A stretch of 64,000 nt of DNA from Caminibacter pacificus (GCF_003752135.1 NZ_RJVK01000002.1:1-64000); one strand, 5' to 3'. Counted from the first letter of the stretch, positions 7,566-52,761 are shown. Program-made: numbers and translations. The notes: generated from the letters alone by a model not told the origin.

Positions 7566-7584
7566 TTTAAGAAAAAGGCAATTG

Positions 7585-8481
7585 ATGCTAAAAGAGAAGT
7601 TGAAAGACAAAATAATTACACTAGAAACAACCCCGCCAAAATCGCCGACTCTTAATGAAATGCTAAAAAAACTCGAAGATTCAAAAGCATACGAATACAT
7701 TGACGGCTTTTCTACTACGGATTGTCCTTTGAGTAAATTAAAATATAATTCGATAATTGCAGCTTACAGACTACAAGAAAAGTTTAAAAAACCCGTAATT
7801 GCTACTATGACTATGAGAGACAGAAATAAAATCGCTCTTCAAAGCGACCTCTTAGGAGCAAACGATTTGGGAATAACCAATATTTTAGCACTAACAGGAG
7901 ACCCGGCAAAAATGTCTGACCAGCCGAATGTAAAAGGTGTTGTGGAAGGTAGTAGCTTATTACTGCTTGAAATAATTAGAGCTTTTAATAACGGAATGGA
8001 TTACGGTGGAAAAGAATTCAAAATCAAACCAAAGCCAATAACTCCTTTTGCGGTTAGCAATTCATACGCAAAAAACTTCTCGACTATCGAAAGAAAAATA
8101 TTTAAAAAAGTAAAAAATTACGCCGTTGGTATCATTACTCAGCCTGTATATGATATTGAAATAGTTGATAAAATGATAGGAATAAGAAATAAAGTCAGAA
8201 AAGAATTTGAAGATGAAAGAAAAGAGTTTGAAATTATTTTCGGATTTTTCCCAATTACAAGGCTTAAAACCGCACAATTTTTACATTCTCACGTTCCGGG
8301 AATATACGTACCCGATAAATGGATAGAAAAACTTATAAAAGCACATAAAATAAGTGAAGAAGAAGAATACAAAGTAGGACTTGAACTTAGCAGAAATCTT
8401 TTTCAAAAACTTTTAAAAATTCATCCTAAAATTCATATTATGACTGCAAACAGATTCGAAATCGTAAAAGAGCTTTTTTAA
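7585..8481 (+). CDS. metF: 5,10-methylenetetrahydrofolate reductase
   Basis: FAD-dependent TIM-barrel enzyme reducing methylene-THF to methyl-THF for methionine synthesis. The 298 residues show [12 protein letters not shown] near the N-terminus, TTDCPLSK and MTMRDRN (about 45-90), the family LALTGDP at about 110-117, and QPVYD near 192. ATG 7585 is preferred to TTG 7582 because AAGG lies 6 bases above the ATG but only 3 above the TTG. It is transcribed divergently from the chemoreceptor and converges on the beta-barrel gene with a four-base overlap. Confidence 0.9.
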
Positions 8482-8490
8482 AAAGCTCTT
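8468..8490. terminator. Palindromic convergent terminator spanning both stop codons
   Basis: AAGAGCTTTTT (8468-8478) and AAAAAGCTCTT (8480-8490) are perfect inverted repeats around one central T. The GC-containing stem with U tract on either strand can act as a bidirectional terminator, and it lies entirely on the overlapping 3' ends of metF and the barrel gene. Confidence 0.5.
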
Positions 8491-9359
8491 GAATACGATA
8501 ATAAATAAACTGCTGAATTCACATCAACACCGTCTTCTTTAAAACTTGAATATGTAAATCCTACACCGAAAGTATTTACTTTATCCCATGTATATTTTAC
8601 ATTTACTCCGAAGCTGTTTTTATATTCTTCTCCAAGATTATATACCACAAAACCGCCGTTTTCTACTCTATAAGCACTTTTTCCAAAATTAGCACTAAGT
8701 GTTGTAGTCCAGTTTTTAATGTAATTACTTAAAGTAATATTATAATTTCTATAATTTTGTCTTCCTGTAACACCTTTATCTGTAATATGAATTAGATTTG
8801 CTTGAAATTTTAAATAAAAACTTCCGCTTGGCGAATAATAATTTCCAAAATTAAATCCGACATAAGGAGAAACTTGCTTAACGTTAAATCCATCATAATA
8901 AGAAGCATAATAATCCATTCCTGCATTATATTTTAGATATTTATAATATTCTAATCCCACAATATATACATTATCAAAACTATCATTATTGTTTTTTTGG
9001 TCTATAAACATCGAATGAGCACCTAATTTAAAAGCAAACTTATCACCTAAATAAAAATTTATAATCCCAGTAATATCATTTTGATTATAATCGTTATTAT
9101 TATAATCAACATTTGCAATAGAAATTTTATTATTTCTTGCATATTTTGCATATGACTTATAAGTAATATACGTATGTTCCGCGTCAAGTTCAAGTTTTAT
9201 TTTATTAAAAAATTTACTGGCATATACACCGCCTACAAAACCGTAATCTTTAGCCGCTTCTTTTGAATAATCAATATAAGCCCCGTATGGCATTACAACT
9301 GTTCCTGCAGCAAATACACTACTCGCAAGTAACGCTGTACTTAAAATTAGCTTTTTCAT
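8478..9359 (-). CDS. Outer-membrane beta-barrel protein, unknown function
   Basis: 293 residues. A clear signal peptide (MKKLILSTALLASSVFA, cleavage before AGTVV) is followed by alternating hydrophobic/polar strands rich in Tyr, Asn, Gly and Phe, ending in SYSRAF with the C-terminal Phe typical of Bam-assembled barrels. The strand pattern suggests about 12-14 strands. The second of two tandem ATGs (9359) is chosen because GGAG is six bases above it. It is last in the PqqD/ATP-grasp operon, immediately after the stop of the regulator, so a role as that system's outer-membrane channel or receptor is inferred. No specific family recognised. Confidence 0.8.
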   Translation of the reverse strand: MKKLILSTALLASSVFAAGTVVMPYGAYIDYSKEAAKDYGFVGGVYASKFFNKIKLELDAEHTYITYKSYAKYARNNKISIANVDYNNNDYNQNDITGIINFYLGDKFAFKLGAHSMFIDQKNNNDSFDNVYIVGLEYYKYLKYNAGMDYYASYYDGFNVKQVSPYVGFNFGNYYSPSGSFYLKFQANLIHITDKGVTGRQNYRNYNITLSNYIKNWTTTLSANFGKSAYRVENGGFVVYNLGEEYKNSFGVNVKYTWDKVNTFGVGFTYSSFKEDGVDVNSAVYLLSYSRAF

Positions 9360-9362
9360 CAT

Positions 9363-9953
9363 TTACTCCTTTAATTTATATCCTAAATTTTTTACGTTTT
9401 CTATTTCAAATCCTAATTTTCTCAAATTCGAAATTATCACTTTTATCGAATTAATACTATCGATACTCTCACTCATAGCCGATATATCTTCTTTTGAGAG
9501 ATATTTATTTCTATTTTTTATCAAAATAGCCAATACATCACTTTCAGCTTTTGTAAGTCTTAAAGGTTTAGAGTTTTCATATAATTGATTAGTACTTAAG
9601 TTAAAAATAAATTTTTTATATTTAAAAACTCTCGATTTTAATTTTATTACTTTTTTTTCTAAATATTCAAGTCTTATCTTAAGTTTATAAAGTTCATCAT
9701 ATGAATAACAATAATTCGCTACACTTAAAGCTTTTTTATAAATAAACTCATCACAAACTTTACAAACGAATATAATTATAACATCATCAGCTAAAAATTT
9801 TTTAATTTCGACTAAAGAAGGATAAAAATCAAAATTTAAAATAATTACGTCATATTTTTTTTCTATTACTCTTGTATAAAAATCGTCTTCGTTATTTACA
9901 AACTCTTTTTCAAAATCATAAATGTCCGTATAATCGAATACCAGTATTCTCAT
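9363..9953 (-). CDS. OmpR-type response regulator with degenerate receiver
   Basis: 196 residues: an N-terminal receiver-like domain (1-105) and a C-terminal winged-helix DNA-binding domain (about 112-196; KPLRLTKAESDVLAIL, and the wing NVKNLGYKLKE). At the phosphoacceptor position the usual Asp is Asn40 (IILNFDFYP), and the acidic pocket after the first strand reads FDYTD, so phosphorylation-independent control, as in the atypical orphan regulators HsrA and CosR of this phylum, is likely. No kinase is next to it. ATGA overlap (9950-9953) with the TPR gene above it. It may sense system state by another route, or act constitutively. Confidence 0.8.
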   Translation of the reverse strand: MRILVFDYTDIYDFEKEFVNNEDDFYTRVIEKKYDVIILNFDFYPSLVEIKKFLADDVIIIFVCKVCDEFIYKKALSVANYCYSYDELYKLKIRLEYLEKKVIKLKSRVFKYKKFIFNLSTNQLYENSKPLRLTKAESDVLAILIKNRNKYLSKEDISAMSESIDSINSIKVIISNLRKLGFEIENVKNLGYKLKE

Positions 9954-10543
9954 TTTTTCAAATACTCTTTCGCTATAACGTTATTCGGATCTAATATAAG
10001 AACGTCACTAAATATTTTTTTAGCCGTATCTTTTTTACCCATATACCAATAGTTTTCCGCTAATAAATTCAAAAACAATACGCTTGTAGGATATAGCGTA
10101 AGCATTTTTTGAGCAAGCTCGGAAGCTACTTTATAGTTTTTTTTACCCATAAGCGCAACTATTTCATAATAATTTCCGTAATAATTATAATAGTCGGTTT
10201 TAAGCAAAGAATTTCCGATTTTCAAAGAATTATCATAATCTCCAATAGTATTATAAACTCTCATAAGACCGAGTTTCGGCTCTACAGAATAAGGCAAAAT
10301 CATTGCTGCTTTTTGATAATGTTTTATTGCGTTTTGATAGTTTTTGTTTAAATAAAAAAGCCAAGCAAGTCTAAGATTTATCGTATATCCGTCCGGATAT
10401 TTTTTATATACGGGAATCAATACTTTAATAGCGTCTTTATAATCTCCCATTTTTTCATAATTATACGAAGAATAATACGCCTCTTTTATATCAAGTGCAA
10501 ATAATGATAGTGTCAAACTAATAATTGCTATGATTTTTCTCAT
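9950..10543 (-). CDS. Periplasmic tetratricopeptide-repeat protein
   Basis: 197 residues with a signal peptide (MRKIIAIISLTLSLFA) and about four to five TPR units, for example GDYKDAIKVLIPVYKKYP, NYQNAIKHYQKAAMILP and KKDTAKKIFSDVLILDP. It should serve as a periplasmic protein-binding scaffold. Translation starts at ATG 10543 after CTAAGGAGAATTA, inside the last 26 bases of the transporter/peptidase gene, so the two are translationally linked. It may link the inner-membrane transporter/peptidase with the outer-membrane barrel; that is inference from context. Confidence 0.82.
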   Translation of the reverse strand: MRKIIAIISLTLSLFALDIKEAYYSSYNYEKMGDYKDAIKVLIPVYKKYPDGYTINLRLAWLFYLNKNYQNAIKHYQKAAMILPYSVEPKLGLMRVYNTIGDYDNSLKIGNSLLKTDYYNYYGNYYEIVALMGKKNYKVASELAQKMLTLYPTSVLFLNLLAENYWYMGKKDTAKKIFSDVLILDPNNVIAKEYLKK

Positions 10544-12536
10544 TAATTCTCCTTAGTTCAAAATTTTTTCCTTTAATTAGTGAAAACCCTTTTTCATAAA
10601 AAGAAAAATGTACTTCTCCGTACTTAGAAAAAACTTTCAATTTTTCTTTCGTATATTCCACTTTTTGGTTAAAAAATTTATGATTAAAAGAGCTTATAAA
10701 CTGCATAATAGCAAGTTTGTGTAAACGAAACCTAAATTCTAAAGGTAACACATCAAAATATTTTACATTTTTGTTTATTAAAGGCAATTTCGGTAACAAT
10801 TTAAAAAGCTCTTTTAAATACGACTCTCCACCTTTATAGTCGTAAAAATAAAAAAGTCTCTCGGCCGTATAAAAATAGAGCTCGTTTTCTCCATCAGTTA
10901 AGAAAAACTCACCTTTATCGTTCATTTTTACTTTAAAAATCACTTCTTTATTATTCGAATCCCTATATTTAAATTCATCATCCAAAATAAAATTAACTCT
11001 AAGTTTCATAGAATTATCAAGTACCGGTGCTTCTATACTTTCATATTCTTTTGGCAAATCATAATAATACAATTTTCCGTTTTTTATAAAATCCACAAAC
11101 TTAAAAGGTAAAGTTTCACTTCCTAAAACCGCGTATTTTTGGACTTGGATATGAATATGAGGTTCGGGTGAATAGCCGCTATTTCCGCATTTTCCTATAA
11201 TATCCCCTACTTTTACGTAATCTCCTACATTTACATTGATAGAATTTTGCATAAGATGAGAAATTTCTACATAATATCCGTAATCGCTTTTTATAATTAT
11301 ATAGTTACCCCAATTATTCACTCTATCTACGTTACCTATAAAATTATCGGGCAAATCGTCTCTTTTTGCAACAACATATCCGTTAACGGGTGCCAATACC
11401 GGTTTGCCAAAAGCATAATAATCTTCTAAAAAAAGGCCGTCGTTTTGGTATGTTTTTCCATTCTTTTTTATTACGAAATCATAAGCGTATTTCCATTTTC
11501 CTTTATGAGTCCATTTCCCTTCAAATCCTTGATATACAAACCATTCTCCCGAAAATGGAAGATAAATTTTTATTCCGTCTCCTCCGAACCTATAAATTTT
11601 GCTCAAATAATAACTAAGCGACTTTTCAGGAGTTTCCTTTATATAATAATTAAAATATTTATATCCGACCCAATAAAGCAAAATCAAAAACGAAACCACA
11701 ATAATATTAAAAGGAAGCGTATAAACAGGCAGTGAGTAGATATTAAAAAATACTTGCATCGCATCTATAAAAACGACACTTATAATCACTCCTATTAAAG
11801 CTAAAAGGTAGTTTTTCGGATGTGGAATCAAAAATATTCCCCCAAGAGCCATAGCTATAAGAATAAAATTAAAGTTATAAATAGAACTCACCGCTTCGTA
11901 ATAAGGTACGAAAATAGCATGTGTGTAAACACCGACTACAAACCCTAAAACAGCCATAAAAAACATTATTCTCGATATTGAAAAAATAATGATAGAAATT
12001 ACAACTCCCGCTATTACATAAGGCAAAAACAGTATCGTTCCCATCGATTTAAAAAAAGAATCTATAAAAACATTATGGAAACTAAAATCGATAAAAGGAG
12101 TTCGGTGAAGTAGATTTGATAAAAGATTGGTGTATTTTAAACTCGCAAGATAAAAAAGCATACTTACTACCGCAAACGGAAAAGATAAAATCGGCACGTT
12201 AAACCAAGAAAAAAATTTGTTTAATGAAAACGAAAATAAAAAAGTAATAATTGAAAGTAAAATAGTTAAAATTATAGCCGCATAACTTATATCAAAAAAA
12301 TATCCTACTCCCATACCTACAAGTAATGAGTTGTATAAATAAAATCCGTATTTTAAATATTCCTCTCTTATTCCTACGATTTCCGCAAAAGCAATAGTCG
12401 AAACTATTGAAATAATCGCATAAAAACCTACACTCGGCAACAAAAAAGATAAAATAAAAAGAAAAATCCCCACCCACCAATAATTTAAAAAAATTATGGC
12501 TGAGTAAGGTTTAAAAAAGAGTTTTATCTTCTCCAT
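10518..12536 (-). CDS. Urea transporter (UT family) fused to M23/LytM-type metallopeptidase domain
   Basis: 672 residues. Residues 14-296 form about ten membrane helices with urea-transporter hallmarks: NYWWVGIFLF, GIREEYLKYGFYLYNSLLVG in the first half, and LPVYTLPFNI (269-278) in the second. Residues 320-500 are an M23 domain: YAYDF with Asp353 as likely zinc ligand, GKPVLAPVNGYVV, ISHL (His427), and the PHIHIQ motif (His460, His462). The usual His four residues before Asp353 is absent, so zinc binding may be altered (His344 is a candidate) and activity is unproven. The last 170 residues are a basic extension of unknown fold. It is two bases below the PLP decarboxylase gene in the same operon. 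The transporter would sit in the inner membrane with the peptidase in the periplasm. Confidence 0.85.
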   Translation of the reverse strand: MEKIKLFFKPYSAIIFLNYWWVGIFLFILSFLLPSVGFYAIISIVSTIAFAEIVGIREEYLKYGFYLYNSLLVGMGVGYFFDISYAAIILTILLSIITFLFSFSLNKFFSWFNVPILSFPFAVVSMLFYLASLKYTNLLSNLLHRTPFIDFSFHNVFIDSFFKSMGTILFLPYVIAGVVISIIIFSISRIMFFMAVLGFVVGVYTHAIFVPYYEAVSSIYNFNFILIAMALGGIFLIPHPKNYLLALIGVIISVVFIDAMQVFFNIYSLPVYTLPFNIIVVSFLILLYWVGYKYFNYYIKETPEKSLSYYLSKIYRFGGDGIKIYLPFSGEWFVYQGFEGKWTHKGKWKYAYDFVIKKNGKTYQNDGLFLEDYYAFGKPVLAPVNGYVVAKRDDLPDNFIGNVDRVNNWGNYIIIKSDYGYYVEISHLMQNSINVNVGDYVKVGDIIGKCGNSGYSPEPHIHIQVQKYAVLGSETLPFKFVDFIKNGKLYYYDLPKEYESIEAPVLDNSMKLRVNFILDDEFKYRDSNNKEVIFKVKMNDKGEFFLTDGENELYFYTAERLFYFYDYKGGESYLKELFKLLPKLPLINKNVKYFDVLPLEFRFRLHKLAIMQFISSFNHKFFNQKVEYTKEKLKVFSKYGEVHFSFYEKGFSLIKGKNFELRRINEKNHSNY

Positions 12537-12537
12537 T

Positions 12538-13872
12538 TTACTTCAAATACTCCGGAAGCACTTCTTTTTCAACTACATAATCCAAGTCATCAGCTTCTCT
12601 TATGAGATGAGGCGTTCCGTTCGTATCTATCAACACGGCTCTTGGTCTGTATCTAATAAACTGCATAGATTGTGTAATATTATAAGCCCCAACAGGCCAA
12701 ATAGTAAGAACACTTCCTCTATCAAGCGGAGGTAAAGTAATATTTTCCGCTATAACGTCAATATTCATACAAAGCGGTCCGTTTATTTGGCTCGGTTCGT
12801 TAAGACCTTCGTATCTTTTATCAAGGAAAATATTAAAGTTATACCAAAACGCAGTATATAATAGATTCACACCCGCATCAACGATATAACTTTTCTTTCC
12901 GTCAGGCAATCTTTTACTCGCAAATACTGTTGTCAATAAATATCCCGCTTCATCAATCAGAGCTCTTCCGGTTTCAAGATATAGTTTCGGAAGTTTTCCT
13001 TCGTTGTATTCGTAAATCGCGCTTGTAATAGCTTCCGCATACTCTTCGGCAGTAGGCACTACCACTTCCGGAGCTTGATAAACTCCTTTTAATCTGTTTT
13101 TACTTGCAAAACCACCGCCTACGTCGATGTATTCTATTTCATATCCGAAATCCTTTTCGACTCTGTTTTTGAGCTGAATTAATTTTTTCGTTTCGTTTTT
13201 GTATGCTTCGGCACTCAACATAAATGTTCCGATATGAGAATGAAGACCGGTTAAGATTAATTTTTTACCCTCATAAATTCTTTTTACGGCGTCATAAGCT
13301 TCGCCGTTATCGATATTAAACCCGAATCTACTCCAAGCAGGATAAACTCCCGTATCCATATTGCATCTGATAGCTACTGGAATTTCCATTCCGAGCTCAT
13401 CCGCTATCTCCTCAAGGTCGTTAATCTCATACCAATGGTCGATATGAATTTTCGCTCCCTCTTTTACGGCAACTTTAAGTGCATCTTTAGGTTTATACGG
13501 TCCGTTGAAAATAATATCTTTTCCTTCAATACCAAGACGTCTTGCTTTTTGATATTCAAATTCGCTAACCACCTCGGCTTTACTTCCCAATTTATGATAA
13601 ATCTTACAAATAGCGTCAAGATAATTGGTTTTATAACTCCACCAAAATTCAACTTCAGGATATCTGCTTGTAAATTCTTCTTTGAATTCTTTATATTTCT
13701 CTTCAATCACTCTTTGTGAAAAAACAAAAAGAGGAGAGCCGAATTTTTCAGTCAATTCGTGAACGTCCACTCCGTCTATTTCGCTTTTTATTCTTTGAGT
13801 TTTAAGAGGACTTCCGTATTTACTCGCAAGTGCGAAATCCACTCTGTTTATTGTTGGTTTTTCATATTTCAT
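12538..13872 (-). CDS. PLP-dependent fold-III decarboxylase (diaminopimelate/ornithine decarboxylase-like)
   Basis: 444 residues, an alanine-racemase-fold barrel plus C-terminal beta domain. Lys81 in WWSYKTN aligns with the PLP lysine of LysA (YAVKAN). HSHIGTF (211-217) and DVGGGF (250-255) bind cofactor, ETGR (300-303) replaces the EPGR substrate helix of LysA, Cys368 in GPLC aligns with the catalytic Cys, and VGAYNIT holds the PLP-contacting Tyr. A separate true lysA lies at 51.6 kb, so this paralogue should act on another amino acid or on a ligated product. A 40-residue N-terminal extension precedes the barrel. It lies 11 bases after the ATP-grasp gene and 2 bases before the transporter/peptidase gene. 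Confidence 0.85.
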   Translation of the reverse strand: MKYEKPTINRVDFALASKYGSPLKTQRIKSEIDGVDVHELTEKFGSPLFVFSQRVIEEKYKEFKEEFTSRYPEVEFWWSYKTNYLDAICKIYHKLGSKAEVVSEFEYQKARRLGIEGKDIIFNGPYKPKDALKVAVKEGAKIHIDHWYEINDLEEIADELGMEIPVAIRCNMDTGVYPAWSRFGFNIDNGEAYDAVKRIYEGKKLILTGLHSHIGTFMLSAEAYKNETKKLIQLKNRVEKDFGYEIEYIDVGGGFASKNRLKGVYQAPEVVVPTAEEYAEAITSAIYEYNEGKLPKLYLETGRALIDEAGYLLTTVFASKRLPDGKKSYIVDAGVNLLYTAFWYNFNIFLDKRYEGLNEPSQINGPLCMNIDVIAENITLPPLDRGSVLTIWPVGAYNITQSMQFIRYRPRAVLIDTNGTPHLIREADDLDYVVEKEVLPEYLK

Positions 13873-13883
13873 ATTTCAGCTCC

Positions 13884-14888
13884 TTATAGCTCTTTTGTTG
13901 ATAATAATTTTGAAAAATCACTAAAATCTCTCACAGTCTCTTCTACATATCTTACATACATTTTCTCAACCGGATACTCAAGATTCGGCGTTACTTTTTC
14001 GCCTTTTATAATATCCACCATCATTTTAGGAAGATTAATTCCAAGCATTGTCGCAAAATATACCCAAGCCGGAAATCTCGGATTAATTTCTATCAAATAT
14101 ACGTCGTTTCCGTTTGCTATAGCTTCAAGCTCGAAAGCTCCTCTCCATCCGGTAACTTCGACGAATTTTTTCGCCATTTCCAAAAGTTTTTCGTTTTTAA
14201 TACTAACGGCACTCCAAACTTTTCCAAGGTCCGTAGTCGTTAGTTTTTTAATACCCACACCACCTAAAAGCTCTGCGTTTGCAAGTCCTACGTAGTTTAT
14301 CTCTATACCGCTGACAACTTCTTGAACCAAAAGAGGAAAACCCCATTCGTTTGAAATTTTGTAATAATATTCAATCGCTTCGTCAAGATTATAAGCGATA
14401 TAAGCTTTATAATAATTTCCTTTTACCATTACAGGAAAACCAATCTCTTTTGTCGCTTTTATCAAATCGTCAAGTGAAATTATTTCGATTGTTTTCGGGT
14501 GTTTTACACCGAGTTTTTCACTAAATTCGGGAAGTCTTTTTTTCTCCCTCATCTCAAAATTCTCAAGAGTCGGTAAAAAGGTCTTTATTCCCATTTTTTC
14601 AAGTTCGTTTTGATACTTAATATACATCGGAAGTTCGGCATCAAGATTCGGTATTAAAATATCAAGTCCGCTTTTTTCTTTTATTTGGTTAAGTCTTTGT
14701 TTCGTATCTTCCCAGCCGACACTCGGAAACGGCATTAAATAGACTTTTTCAAAAAGTCCTTGATAAATACCCGGTTCGTTCGGATCGTAACTCAAACCGA
14801 TTAAATCATACTCGCTTAAACTTTTGGCAACAGGTACTCCGGGAGCGGGGTTGTCCGTGTTATTAAGACCGCTAAGTGCTATTTTCAT
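13884..14888 (-). CDS. ATP-grasp ligase, carbamoyl-phosphate-synthase-L-like
   Basis: 334 residues: an N-terminal pre-ATP-grasp Rossmann-like domain (1-105; MKIALSGLNNTDNPAPGVPV), then an ATP-grasp domain with MREKKRLPEF, FPVMVKGNY (ATP-binding Lys), LVQEVVSG and the metal-binding LIEINPRFPAW. Such enzymes join a carboxylate to an amine or other nucleophile through an acyl-phosphate. The substrate is unknown. ATGA overlap with the PqqD-like gene and 11 bases to the decarboxylase gene argue that the three act on one molecule, perhaps a peptide held by the PqqD-like protein. Confidence 0.85.
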   Translation of the reverse strand: MKIALSGLNNTDNPAPGVPVAKSLSEYDLIGLSYDPNEPGIYQGLFEKVYLMPFPSVGWEDTKQRLNQIKEKSGLDILIPNLDAELPMYIKYQNELEKMGIKTFLPTLENFEMREKKRLPEFSEKLGVKHPKTIEIISLDDLIKATKEIGFPVMVKGNYYKAYIAYNLDEAIEYYYKISNEWGFPLLVQEVVSGIEINYVGLANAELLGGVGIKKLTTTDLGKVWSAVSIKNEKLLEMAKKFVEVTGWRGAFELEAIANGNDVYLIEINPRFPAWVYFATMLGINLPKMMVDIIKGEKVTPNLEYPVEKMYVRYVEETVRDFSDFSKLLSTKEL

Positions 14889-15121
14889 TGAATAAGTCCG
14901 TAAACTTTCAATTTAATAAAAAAATCCTCGACATCAATATAAACTTTTCTCCAATCCTCCCCGCTCTCTTCGGATAAAATCTTAACAATCTCCTCTTTTG
15001 TTTTTCCCTCTTTTATAAGCTCAACTATTCTTTTTGCCGTTGAATTCAACTGAAAGCTCGTTCCCAAAGACGGAATAAATCCCATATTATTCTCGTCGAT
15101 TACCATTTCGTTAATAAGCAT
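14885..15121 (-). CDS. PqqD-like protein (RiPP recognition element type)
   Basis: 78 residues. The pattern of an N-terminal beta region (MVIDENNMGFIPSLGTSFQL), LNSTAKRIVELIKEGKTKEEI and a second helix pair (VDVEDFFIKL-type ending in YGLIQ) matches the PqqD family, small winged-helix proteins that bind leader peptides of ribosomally made natural products. It heads the operon: ATG 15121 follows AAAGGAGCGTTT, and a TATAAT lies at 15154-15149. No adjacent radical-SAM gene or obvious precursor peptide is present, so whether it binds a peptide here is unknown. Confidence 0.72.
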   Translation of the reverse strand: MLINEMVIDENNMGFIPSLGTSFQLNSTAKRIVELIKEGKTKEEIVKILSEESGEDWRKVYIDVEDFFIKLKVYGLIQ

Positions 15122-15184: not shown

Positions 15185-17308
15185 TTAGGCTTTTTGAGCT
15201 TTTTGCCAGAAGAAAATTACCGCCCATATCACCAAACCGATAGCGTAAGAGACGTATTCGTTAGGCAAATGTAAATATTTCACCATTAAATTAGGCAGCA
15301 TAAAAAGAGGAACGGCTGCTAAGAAAAGAAGTCTTTGGATGATATTGATTCTTTTTAGGAAATAGCCCTGAGTTGCGGATGAGAAACTAAACATACCAAG
15401 AAGAGCCGTTATGAAAATAATTGCGATTTTTATCGGGTCGCTTATAAAAGTAAATTCGTTGTAATCCCATTCGTTTGTAGATGCTATAAGTAAAAGTTCC
15501 GTATTAAAGAAAAACATAAAAGGTAAAATCGCCGTTCTTATGTCATACGCAAAACCTTGAAGTCCGGTTTTTATAGGGTCTGCTTTTGCAATCCCCGCAG
15601 CCGCGTATGCCGCAATACCTACAGGAGGAGTATCGTCAGCTAAAATACCGAAATAAAATACGAACAGGTGTGCAGCAATTGCAGGAATCAAAAATCCGTT
15701 ATCTTGAGCGAGTTGCAACATAACGGGAGCCGTTAAAGACGCAACTACGATATAGTTTGCCGTAGTTGGAAGCCCCATACCCAAAATCAAAGAAATAAAC
15801 GCAGTAAGTAAAAGAACGATTAAAATATTTCCGTTTGATAGAGTGTCTATTACGTCAAGAAGCACTTGACCGATACCCGTAAGTGTAATACTTCCCACAA
15901 CAATACCGGCAATAGCCGTTGCAAGTGCGATAGGCACCATATTTCTTGCTCCGTTTACCATTCCATGGAAAATATCGATAAAACCTTGGATAAAGTCTTG
16001 TTTTTGAAGTTTTCTTTTTTCGATAAATAGTGCATAAAAAGGATATTGAATAATCATAATCACCATCAAAAGCCAAATTGCGCTAAAAGCCGCCATTTGA
16101 GCCGATTGTCTAAGAACGATAAGTACATACATCAAATAAACGACAGGAATCAAATAATGAAGACCGCTTATAAACGTTTTAAGTTTCGGCGGAAGATTTC
16201 TCGGGTCTTCACCTTTTAGACCCAATTTTTTAGCTTCCAAATGAACGATATATAAAAGCGCTAAGTAACTCACAACCGCTGGAATTGCAGCGGCTATAAT
16301 CACATCCGTATAAGCAAGTCCCAAAAATTCCGCGATAATAAACGCTGCAGCTCCCATTACAGGCGGCATAAGCTGTCCGTTTGTAGAAGCGGCGACTTCT
16401 ACGGCCGCAGCTTTTTCAGGTGGAAATCCTGCTTTTTTCATAAGAGGAATTGTAAATACACCCGTAGTAACTACGTTAGCCGTAGAACTACCGCTGATAA
16501 TCCCGGTAAGTCCGCTTGCAACGACACTCGCTTTTGCCGGACCTCCGCTATATTTACCCAAAAACGCATACGCAAGCTTGATAAAATATTCACCTGCCCC
16601 GGCTCTCTCAAGCAAACTACCGAATAATACGAACAAAAACACGAATCCCGCCGATACGCCAAGAGGCACGCCGTAAATACCTTCGGTAGTCAAATACATC
16701 TGAGCTACGATTTTTTCGATACTCGCTCCCTTATGAGAAATAATCTCCGGCAAATACTGACCGAATTTATCATAAAGCAAAAAGACTATAGCCACGATAC
16801 TTAAAGCCATACCGATAACTCTTCTCCCCGCTTCCAAAAGAATAATTATAAAAATAACTCCGATAACGATATCTCTTGTCAAATAATCACCGGGTCTATT
16901 AGAAAGACCGACATAGTCAATAGCAATATACGCAGCCCCAAGACCCCCGATTATCGCTAAAATCCAATCCCACCATTGAATGTTTTTTAGAAATTTCGGT
17001 TTTTTGGCAATAGGATAGATTAAAAATGCCAAAACCATTGCAAAAGCCAAGTGAATACTTCTGACAATAGTAGAATTTACAGGAAAATAACTGACGTAAA
17101 GTTGATATAAAGACCATGCGAAAGCTATAAGCGCAATCAACCAATAATAAACACTTTTTGGAGGAAAGTTTCTTTGACCTTCAAGCTCGGTTAATATCTT
17201 CTCTTCCAAATCCTTATCGACTTTACCCTCTTTAAGAGCTTCTTTTTCTACTTCGTCCACCTCTTTTTCAAGATTAGGATCGGCATCGAAAACTTCAGGT
17301 TTTGACAT
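15185..17308 (-). CDS. TRAP transporter permease, fused 4TM-12TM (DctQM-type, TAXI class)
   Basis: 707 residues. A 55-residue acidic cytoplasmic start is followed by four small-subunit helices, then the large-subunit region with GSSTANVVTTG, STNGQLMPPVMGAAAF and GLPTTANYIVVASLTAPV, hallmarks of the ion-coupled permease of TAXI-TRAP systems. With the binding protein encoded 78 bases upstream it makes a complete sodium- or proton-driven uptake system. Substrate unknown; TAXI systems are often linked to dicarboxylates or glutamate. Start: ATG 17308 after AAAGGAGTAGCC. Confidence 0.93.
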   Translation of the reverse strand: MSKPEVFDADPNLEKEVDEVEKEALKEGKVDKDLEEKILTELEGQRNFPPKSVYYWLIALIAFAWSLYQLYVSYFPVNSTIVRSIHLAFAMVLAFLIYPIAKKPKFLKNIQWWDWILAIIGGLGAAYIAIDYVGLSNRPGDYLTRDIVIGVIFIIILLEAGRRVIGMALSIVAIVFLLYDKFGQYLPEIISHKGASIEKIVAQMYLTTEGIYGVPLGVSAGFVFLFVLFGSLLERAGAGEYFIKLAYAFLGKYSGGPAKASVVASGLTGIISGSSTANVVTTGVFTIPLMKKAGFPPEKAAAVEVAASTNGQLMPPVMGAAAFIIAEFLGLAYTDVIIAAAIPAVVSYLALLYIVHLEAKKLGLKGEDPRNLPPKLKTFISGLHYLIPVVYLMYVLIVLRQSAQMAAFSAIWLLMVIMIIQYPFYALFIEKRKLQKQDFIQGFIDIFHGMVNGARNMVPIALATAIAGIVVGSITLTGIGQVLLDVIDTLSNGNILIVLLLTAFISLILGMGLPTTANYIVVASLTAPVMLQLAQDNGFLIPAIAAHLFVFYFGILADDTPPVGIAAYAAAGIAKADPIKTGLQGFAYDIRTAILPFMFFFNTELLLIASTNEWDYNEFTFISDPIKIAIIFITALLGMFSFSSATQGYFLKRINIIQRLLFLAAVPLFMLPNLMVKYLHLPNEYVSYAIGLVIWAVIFFWQKAQKA

Positions 17309-17350
17309 GGCTACTCCTTTTAAATTTGAAAAAAATAAAAAAGGCTTTTA

Positions 17351-17379
17351 CCTTCTTTATTTTTTTCAAAAAAAGAAGG
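17351..17379 (-). terminator. Hairpin between TRAP binding-protein and permease genes
   Basis: CCTTCTTT (17351-17358) and AAAGAAGG (17372-17379) form an inverted repeat. In the minus-strand transcript it falls 7 bases below the binding-protein stop. It lacks a long U tract, so partial termination or 3'-end protection, giving more binding protein than permease, is the likely role. Confidence 0.4.
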
Positions 17380-17386
17380 GGAAAAA

Positions 17387-18340
17387 TTATAGAAGTCCCG
17401 CTTCTTTGAATGCTTTTACTGCTCCAGGGTGCATCATATTATGATCGAAACCTTTTAGTAAGTCTTTTTTAGTTAAGTTTTTATATGCAGGGTGCATTTT
17501 TTTGAATTTGTCAAAGTTGTCAAGAATCGCTTTTGTTAGATAATATACGGTTTTTTCATCCATTTTGTTACTTGTAACAAGGATAGCTTTAACTCCGTAT
17601 GTTTTTGTAGGATGATTTACACCTTTGTACATTCCAGCAGGAATCACTCCCCATGCATAATAAGGTTTTTCAGCTACAAGTTTTTGAGCCGCAGGTACGT
17701 TATCAAGAGAAATCAAATCGATTGCCACTGAGTTTGCCGCGTCTTTGATATTTGCAGTTGGATGTCCTACCATATAGAAATATCCGTCGATTTTTTTATC
17801 TTTAAGAGCGTTCGGACATTCAGCCGCTTTTAGTTGCTCTACTTTGATATCTTTTAAATTCATTTTTTTGCAGTAATCAAATAATGTTTTTACAGCAGCT
17901 TCGTTACCGCTTCCAGGGTTTCCGATATTGATTCTGTGACCTTTTAAGTCAAAAAAGTTTTTAATTCCGCTATCTTTTCTAACTACAAGAGTCAAAAGTT
18001 CAGGGTGAATTGACATAACAACTCTTAAACCTTTAAACGGTTTACCTTTAAATTTTCCCTCTCCGTTGTATGCTTGATATACTACGTCTGATTGAGCGAT
18101 ACCGAAATCAAGCTCACCTTTTTTAATAGCGTTGATGTTATATACGCTTCCTCCCGTACTTTCTACAGTACATTTAATACCTGTTTGTTTTTTCATCTTG
18201 TTCATAATTCTACAAATTGCTCCACCTGTCGGATAATATACTCCCGTTACTCCACCAGTTCCTATCGTGATGTATTCATAAGCAAACGCACTCGTTGCTA
18301 ATACTGCCGCAGATAATGCGCCTATAACCAATTTTTTCAT
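17387..18340 (-). CDS. TAXI-family TRAP transporter solute-binding protein
   Basis: Periplasmic substrate receptor of 317 residues. A signal peptide (MKKLVIGALSAAVLATSAFA) precedes YEYITIGTGGVTGVYYPTGGAICR, the typical TAXI beginning, then CTVESTGGSVYNI, GELDFGIAQSDV and NIGNPGSGNE. Start: ATG 18340 is preferred to the in-frame GTG 18346 because the GTG is part of the ribosome site AAAGGAGTG. Transcribed first, ahead of the fused permease. Four cysteines in the mature protein may form disulfides. Confidence 0.94.
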   Translation of the reverse strand: MKKLVIGALSAAVLATSAFAYEYITIGTGGVTGVYYPTGGAICRIMNKMKKQTGIKCTVESTGGSVYNINAIKKGELDFGIAQSDVVYQAYNGEGKFKGKPFKGLRVVMSIHPELLTLVVRKDSGIKNFFDLKGHRINIGNPGSGNEAAVKTLFDYCKKMNLKDIKVEQLKAAECPNALKDKKIDGYFYMVGHPTANIKDAANSVAIDLISLDNVPAAQKLVAEKPYYAWGVIPAGMYKGVNHPTKTYGVKAILVTSNKMDEKTVYYLTKAILDNFDKFKKMHPAYKNLTKKDLLKGFDHNMMHPGAVKAFKEAGLL

Positions 18341-18374
18341 TGGCACTCCTTTTAAATAAATTGTTATTCATTTT

Positions 18375-51555: not shown

Positions 51556-52761
51556 TTATACCAAATAATCAACTTCGCAAGCGATTAAATCTTCAAAAGT
51601 TTCTCTTCTTCTGATTAATCTGTCGTTTCCGTCTTCAATAGCAACTTCCGCGGCTCTTGGGCGGGTGTTATAGTTGCTTGCCATCGTAAATCCGTAAGCA
51701 CCTGCGCTATGTATCACTATCAAATCTCCCGGATTCGTTTTAGGTACGTCGATATCTTTTGCAAAAAAATCTCCGCTTTCACAAATCGGACCAACGATAT
51801 TGGCTTTGCTTATTTCTTTATTGTCGTTTAGAACTTCGATTTTGTGATATGCGTTATATAGACTCGGTCTTATCAAATCGTTCATAGCCCCGTCAACAAT
51901 AACGAATCTCTTATCTCCGTTTACTTTCTCGTAAAGCACTTTTGTCAAAAACCATCCGCCGTTTCCTACCATAAACCTACCCGGCTCGCAAATAATAGTC
52001 ACGTCAAGTCCGCTAAGAGTCGAGAGAATCGCTTGAGCGTAGTCGTAAGGTTTAATCAACTCTTCGTCTTTATACTTAATACCAAGCCCGCCACCGATAT
52101 CGAAAAACTTAATATCGACGTTAATAGCTTTTAAACTTCTAACAAGATTAGCGACTATCTCACTGGCTTCTCTTATAGGCTCGAGTTCCGTAAGCTGGCT
52201 TCCGATATGAAAATGAATACCAACAGGATTTAGATTTTCGCTTTTTTTAGCAAAAATATACATCCCCTTAGCAGTTTCGATATCCACACCGAATTTGTTT
52301 TCGTGAAGTCCGGTTGAAATGTAAGGGTGAGTTTTCGGGTCGATATTAGGATTTACTCTTATAGAAATTCTTGCTACTTTTCCAAGTTCTTTAGCGATTG
52401 CATCAACTCTTTTTAGCTCTGCTTCACTCTCTACGTTTATCATCAAAATATCTTTTTGAATCGCTTCTTTTATTTCATCGTCTCTTTTTCCCACGCCTGA
52501 GAATATTATTTTGTATTTATCAACACCTGCCAAAAGCGCTCTTTTTACCTCTCCGATACTAACGCAATCAGCACCGCTTCCCAAATTTGCAAAATGTCTG
52601 ATAACCGAAAGATTGGAATTGGCTTTTACCGCATAAGCGATAATACTTTTTCTTGCTTTAAAAGCGTTTTTAAGTGCGTTATACTGCTGCGTAAAATGAT
52701 TAAAATCATAAACGTATAAAGGCGTATCGTATTTTTGTGCTAAATATTTAAAATCAATCAT
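51556..52761 (-). CDS. lysA: Diaminopimelate decarboxylase
   Basis: Last step of lysine synthesis. 401 residues; PLP Lys46 in YAVKANSN, HFHIGSQ, DIGGGLGI, CEPGRFMV, GPICESGDF and AGAYGFTMASNYN, all canonical. Overlaps the lptF-like gene by eight bases. The paralogue at 12.5-13.9 kb differs at the substrate helix. Confidence 0.97.
   Translation of the reverse strand: MIDFKYLAQKYDTPLYVYDFNHFTQQYNALKNAFKARKSIIAYAVKANSNLSVIRHFANLGSGADCVSIGEVKRALLAGVDKYKIIFSGVGKRDDEIKEAIQKDILMINVESEAELKRVDAIAKELGKVARISIRVNPNIDPKTHPYISTGLHENKFGVDIETAKGMYIFAKKSENLNPVGIHFHIGSQLTELEPIREASEIVANLVRSLKAINVDIKFFDIGGGLGIKYKDEELIKPYDYAQAILSTLSGLDVTIICEPGRFMVGNGGWFLTKVLYEKVNGDKRFVIVDGAMNDLIRPSLYNAYHKIEVLNDNKEISKANIVGPICESGDFFAKDIDVPKTNPGDLIVIHSAGAYGFTMASNYNTRPRAAEVAIEDGNDRLIRRRETFEDLIACEVDYLV

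Follow-up and report, generated by a model that had tools for sequence, protein, structure and literature searches.

A conserved operon around a urea-transporter-fold/M23 peptidase fusion in Campylobacterota and a second phylum

Results

Gene content of the locus

We analyzed a stretch of 64,000 nucleotides from Caminibacter pacificus (NZ_RJVK01000002.1:1-64000; hereafter, the window). Positions 8478-15121 carry seven ORFs, all on the minus strand, as an earlier note on this DNA had claimed. The first encodes a PqqD-like (RRE-fold) protein of 78 aa (14885..15121; PF05402, 9.5e-10), and the second an ATP-grasp ligase of 334 aa (13884..14888; ATPgrasp_Ter PF15632, 1.3e-8). They are followed by a PLP decarboxylase of alanine-racemase fold with an FslC/FigC-like pocket (444 aa; 12538..13872; Orn_Arg_deC_N PF02784, 6.2e-32), and by a protein of 672 aa (10518..12536), here called UT-M23, in which a membrane domain of UT fold (PF03253, 3.7e-62) is joined to an M23 metallopeptidase domain (Peptidase_M23 PF01551, 2.4e-14) and to a C-terminal domain of ~190 aa. 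The remaining three genes encode a TPR protein with a signal-peptide-like N-terminal segment, predicted to be periplasmic (197 aa; 9950..10543; PF14559, 1.1e-14), an atypical OmpR-type regulator, which is an optional member (196 aa; 9363..9953; Trans_reg_C PF00486, 1e-7), and a 14-strand outer-membrane beta-barrel recognized from its AF2 model, with no Pfam match (294 aa; 8478..9362). Pfam thus confirms the domains named in the earlier note for the first six genes, and AF2 modeling does so for the barrel. In NCBIfam, no operon protein was placed in a named family above cut-off, and an Rfam search gave no match.

The genes are tightly packed. The PqqD-like and ATP-grasp genes overlap by 4 nt, and gaps of 11 nt and 1 nt separate the ATP-grasp gene from the decarboxylase gene and the latter from UT-M23. 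Downstream, UT-M23 and the TPR gene overlap by 26 nt, the TPR and regulator genes overlap by 4 nt, and the regulator and barrel genes abut. Overlaps or gaps of 1-11 bases had been described; this is correct for the gaps, which reach 11 nt, whereas the UT-M23/TPR overlap slightly exceeds that range. The proposal of a single promoter is not established. Although the 63-nt gap upstream of the PqqD-like gene contains a TATAAT-like stretch, the number of sigma-70 matches in the operon region is close to chance (47 versus 37 +/- 6 in shuffles), and immediately upstream, likewise on the minus strand, comes a TRAP permease gene. This TAXI-type TRAP transporter (15185-18346; permease fused to binding protein) is kept in some Nautiliaceae and missing from other relatives, and because of these absences we do not count it as part of the operon. 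On the other side, a methylenetetrahydrofolate-reductase-like gene (7582-8481) is convergent with the operon, its stop overlapping the barrel gene by 4 nt.

Conservation in two phyla

A scan with the ATP-grasp protein yielded 33 loci from Nautiliaceae, Sulfurimonas, Sulfurovum, Nitratifractor and relatives, to which 12 further genomes were added. The gene set recurs in many vent-dwelling Campylobacterota, including N. profundicola, with a constant core order (PqqD-like protein, ATP-grasp, PLP decarboxylase, UT-M23, TPR protein, 14-strand barrel) and variable flanks. Among the Campylobacterota loci, some of which are one genome represented twice, the PqqD-like gene lies directly upstream of the ATP-grasp gene in 43 of 43 (and in 17 of 17 further loci), the ATP-grasp gene adjoins the decarboxylase gene in 43/44, the latter adjoins UT-M23 in 39/42, and the TPR gene is found at most 1.3 kb from UT-M23 in 33/36. 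The barrel gene is nearly always present (35 homologs among the fetched loci), its position shifting between downstream, upstream and divergent. The regulator gene occurs in only part of the loci, and we therefore consider the core to consist of six genes. Since the flanking genes differ between loci, the operon is kept as a unit, rather than through mere synteny. When 150 genomes of Campylobacteria were sampled, the ATP-grasp protein and full-length UT-M23 were found in an identical set of 13. In one genome (G150, locus L048), the PqqD/ATP-grasp/decarboxylase triad is unlinked from the UT-M23-TPR-regulator block, and both are retained. At another locus (L066; G052:C1:843500-862500), stops or frameshifts interrupt the genes for the decarboxylase and UT-M23 while the PqqD-like and ATP-grasp genes are intact, which reflects either a decaying operon copy or an assembly error. 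Searches of plasmids returned no UT-M23 and no operon copies.

Homologs were also observed in a second phylum, sampled as 200 genomes drawn around a contig labeled Mariprofundaceae (Pseudomonadota). There, the ATP-grasp protein was found in 29 genomes, UT-M23 in 28 and both in 24 (Fisher p = 3e-22). The best ATP-grasp matches show 35-51% identity, with one fragment at 64%. We fetched 18 of these loci, in which the gene order is the same wherever the contig permits; accessory genes were sampled only. In one of the genomes (G223), a 16S fragment has its closest relatives in Alphaproteobacteria (85%), and the second phylum is thus probably Pseudomonadota. The contig labeled Mariprofundaceae itself (L053) carries a 3.6-kb operon fragment, ~63% identical to the window ATP-grasp and resembling the copies in Sulfurimonas, which is probably misbinned.

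The earlier note had treated the genes as one functional unit, a view to be given up if they did not co-occur in other genomes. The ATP-grasp and UT-M23 genes do occur together in both phyla, which upholds this view and rules out a chance cluster, and because gene order is conserved in two phyla, the arrangement itself is not fortuitous.

The decarboxylase resembles enzymes acting on conjugated amino acids

The best PDB match of the decarboxylase is the N-citrylornithine decarboxylase FslC/FigC (7kh2). In our tree, the operon decarboxylases form a group with FslC that excludes LysA and the ACP-linked enzymes (100/98), although the FslC branch is long. Their pocket carries the motifs GPLCMNID and GAYN, and T340, W343, Y344, C368 and M369 are invariant in 28 of 28 sequences. 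M369 and T340 occupy the positions of FigC M355 and T327, and the Tyr of FigC is kept as Y344. In FigC, M355 and T327 stand in for the residues by which a free amine or carboxylate on the side chain is bound, M355 replacing the acidic residue that holds the amine; the specificity helix is lined by T327, T330 and Y331, and citrate is contacted by H357, R387 and perhaps N389 (PMC7857480). The equivalents of these last three residues in the operon enzymes are I371, Q401 and M403 (L in some). Given the kept FigC-type Met, Thr and Tyr and the loss of the citrate contacts, the pocket suggests as substrate an amino acid whose side chain already bears an acyl group, one other than citrate.

Two more specific identities were rejected. 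As a LysA, the protein scores 229.4 bits on TIGR01048, against a cut-off of 297.9, and its loop reads CMNID in 28/28 sequences instead of CE(S/T)xD; the true lysA of the window is found at 51556-52761 (545.7 bits on the same model). As FslC/FigC proper, it scores 215 bits on NF041039, where more than 500 are required, and its citrate contacts are replaced. The operon enzyme shares with FslC/FigC (rhizoferrin pathway, Francisella) the Cys-Met pair, GAYN, and the Thr and Tyr of the specificity helix, but its partner is an ATP-grasp ligase and not an NIS synthetase. The invariant Met at the free-amine contact and the grouping with FigC, subject to the long-branch caveat, place it among the conjugated-amino-acid decarboxylases. 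FigC, SbnH, AcsE, MccE and BtrK are treated as relatives with substrates of this kind, MccE (microcin C) and BtrK (butirosin) acting where the amino-acid moiety is linked to a peptide-nucleotide or to a carrier protein (PMC7857480). MccE and BtrK have the same fold as the operon enzyme, whose carrier, however, is not an ACP; the ACP-linked plasmid enzymes, with CTP replacing CMN, group separately.

The adjoining ATP-grasp ligase, with CarB-like relatives in the PDB and a conserved metal-binding motif (EINPRFP), is a natural candidate for making such an acyl bond. The decarboxylase pocket suggests that decarboxylation follows ligation, consistent with the order of reactions put forward in the earlier note.

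A urea-transporter fold with an altered pore and a peptidase predicted to be cytoplasmic

The AF2 model of UT-M23 has a pLDDT of 89, and its UT part matches 3k3f (target TM 0.80); with 210.6 bits on PF03253 (threshold, 25), this places it in the UT fold family. It scores well below a urea transporter of the Yut type (113.7 versus a cut-off of 274.6 on TIGR03441), and the positions of dvUT Gln24 and Glu187 are occupied by S/A and mostly T, respectively. From the alignment and the dvUT numbering, we take these two positions to correspond to residues of human UT-B. The counterpart glutamines in human UT-B contact pore ligands (PMC10541013). Other pore residues are mostly kept in Campylobacterota, where the pore Phe and Leu are largely retained as in dvUT/Yut, and drift in the second phylum. 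UT-M23 also differs from dvUT/Yut in its fusion to M23 and in its genomic context: no convincing urease was found in UT-M23 genomes, only partial matches in ~400-aa proteins. N. profundicola, moreover, does not grow on urea (PMC2628731). On these grounds, together with the lost pore residues, we reject a role in urea nutrition and consider the UT domain unlikely to be a urea carrier.

Five residues of the M23 domain (H344, D353, H427, H460, H462) are invariant in 53 of 53 sequences, identifying it as an M23 metallopeptidase. The charge distribution of UT-M23 favors an N-in/C-in topology (10.5 versus 1.9 K+R), and the bias has this sign in 16 of 16 proteins from the second phylum; this topology is the one known for UT proteins. 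By the positive-inside rule and by homology, the M23 domain is therefore predicted to face the cytoplasm, which is unusual for an M23 enzyme. A murein hydrolase would act on peptidoglycan in the periplasm. This M23 subfamily has relatives in haloarchaea, which have no murein; its substrate thus need not be peptidoglycan. These relatives, membrane-tethered M23 proteins of Thermus, Thermomicrobium and haloarchaea, share with UT-M23 the motifs H...YAYDF, HL and CGNSGxSxEPHLHxQxQD, as well as the lead-in PE and LPFxGxW. Where UT-M23 has its UT domain, they carry small, unrelated membrane segments, and no ligase or decarboxylase gene adjoins them at the loci inspected.

In the open-licence literature, where absence is not proof of novelty, we found no paper combining a urea transporter with peptidase M23, and none combining any three of urea transporter, M23, PqqD and ATP-grasp.

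Envelope components and regulator

The TPR and barrel proteins both have signal-like N-termini, as read from sequence. The AF2 model of the barrel (pLDDT 81) has 14 strands and resembles OmpG, FadL and CymA. A periplasmic TPR protein paired with an outer-membrane barrel recalls the exporters PgaA, BcsC and Slam, but here the two are separate small proteins. Nor does the window barrel, which has no Pfam match, show the SlipAM domain that Slam carries in one chain with its TPR part. In the window regulator, the receiver Asp is replaced by N, and only 11 of 26 orthologs retain the D; it thus departs from an OmpR-type response regulator with a phosphorylatable receiver, and its earlier description as atypical is borne out.

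Discussion

A possible pathway for synthesis, release and export

We propose, tentatively and at somewhat less than even confidence, that the six-gene core is a module that makes, releases and exports an acylated amine, a product derived from an amino acid by amide linkage and decarboxylation. In the cytoplasm, the ATP-grasp ligase would join a carboxylate to an amino-acid side chain through an amide or ester bond, with the PqqD-like protein presenting one of the partners, perhaps a peptide. The FigC-like decarboxylase would then strip the alpha-carboxylate from the conjugated amino acid, giving the acylated amine. The M23 domain, anchored by the UT domain on the cytoplasmic side of the inner membrane, would cut an amide bond in the product, which would cross this membrane, possibly via the altered UT pore, and leave the cell by way of the TPR protein in the periplasm and the 14-strand barrel. 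The pathway outlined in the earlier note survives in its ligase, decarboxylase and envelope-spanning parts. It had the membrane fusion as part of the path across the envelope; with the M23 domain predicted to be cytoplasmic, cleavage would instead precede transport, and passage of urea through the UT domain is improbable. It speaks against an export module that the operon encodes neither an active transporter nor a source of energy for crossing the inner membrane. Moreover, UT proteins are channels that conduct very small molecules passively, and a larger product would not fit.

A more specific proposal, which we regard as doubtful, is a widespread natural-product or signal system in which the UT fold has taken on a new role, either anchoring a cytoplasmic M23 enzyme that releases the product or serving as its exit pore. 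A PqqD/ATP-grasp/decarboxylase line working without a precursor would supply this enzyme, and the TPR-barrel pair would carry the product away. The module appears to be undescribed. A six-gene core kept in order across two phyla, with invariant catalytic residues, must serve something worth keeping. Its elucidation would give a first function to a precursor-free ATP-grasp/PqqD/FigC-like set and would show what urea-channel folds can become, possibly revealing a secreted metabolite of vent bacteria. Its presence in N. profundicola makes it testable in culture.

Alternative interpretations

The PqqD-like protein scores above the gathering threshold of PF05402 (39.1 versus 23.4), which places it in the RRE (PqqD) family, and it is the only member of that family in the genome. 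It could thus belong to a RiPP pathway with a remote precursor gene, in which the RRE would bind the leader, the ATP-grasp and the MccE/FigC-like decarboxylase would modify the core, M23 would remove the leader, and the TPR protein and barrel would export the product. MccE, which belongs to this decarboxylase family and acts on a group carried by a peptide, offers a precedent (PMC7857480). A plasmid of Tropicibacter oceani (L091, 8901-18362) carries three radical SAM genes and a trypsin-like protease gene together with a membrane-tethered M23 of the UT-M23 subfamily, an association in keeping with such a pathway. RiPP precursor genes are usually adjacent, however, and we found no conserved small ORF within ~1.5 kb of the operon in Campylobacterota or within ~7 kb at the 18 second-phylum loci; that no precursor peptide is visible, already remarked in the window, thus extends to both groups. 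The operon also differs from known RiPP clusters in having no radical SAM or lasso genes, and in six second-phylum loci (L105, L108, L109, L110, L111, L113) a TetR-type DNA-binding domain precedes the PqqD-like domain in a fusion protein. The PqqD-like protein therefore suggests a peptide partner, yet none was found encoded nearby, and we consider the RiPP interpretation unlikely.

The envelope proteins might also work inward, the barrel, the TPR protein and the UT domain importing a small amide or amine for salvage by the cytoplasmic enzymes. UT proteins are channels, OmpG/CymA-like barrels are often uptake pores, and regulators accompany the operon, all of which agree with uptake. A ligase together with a decarboxylase is biosynthetic in logic, however, the urea-contact residues are lost and no convincing urease was found, so that salvage seems to us rather improbable.

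We give similarly little weight to envelope modification, in which a surface protein or glycan would receive the conjugated amine, with the TPR-barrel pair working as a surface export device akin to Slam or PgaA. The TPR protein does have weak matches to PgaA, PrsT and Slam models, the barrel has 14 strands, and in one group a TPR-SlipAM-like protein adjoins the operon. The SlipAM match of this protein (L107) is nevertheless under the curated cut-off, and no surface lipoprotein or glycan genes were recognized in the conserved neighborhood.

Finally, the FslC-like decarboxylase would agree with a metallophore of the rhizoferrin/vibrioferrin type, but such a pathway is very improbable: the genome has 0 matches to an IucA/IucC synthetase and no Fur-box excess upstream of the operon, on which grounds we reject an NIS metallophore, and the conserved core has no TonB receptor, while the FigC citrate contacts are not conserved.

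Accessory genes in the second phylum

Histidine kinase genes lie near the second-phylum operons. At two loci (L107 and L112), genes for a FecR-domain protein and a TPR-SlipAM-like barrel protein are found directly upstream of the PqqD-like gene, the FecR protein of L112 having a long Gly/Pro/Thr-rich repeat tail. Two others (L101 and L102) carry a second, divergent TPR-barrel pair upstream of the operon.
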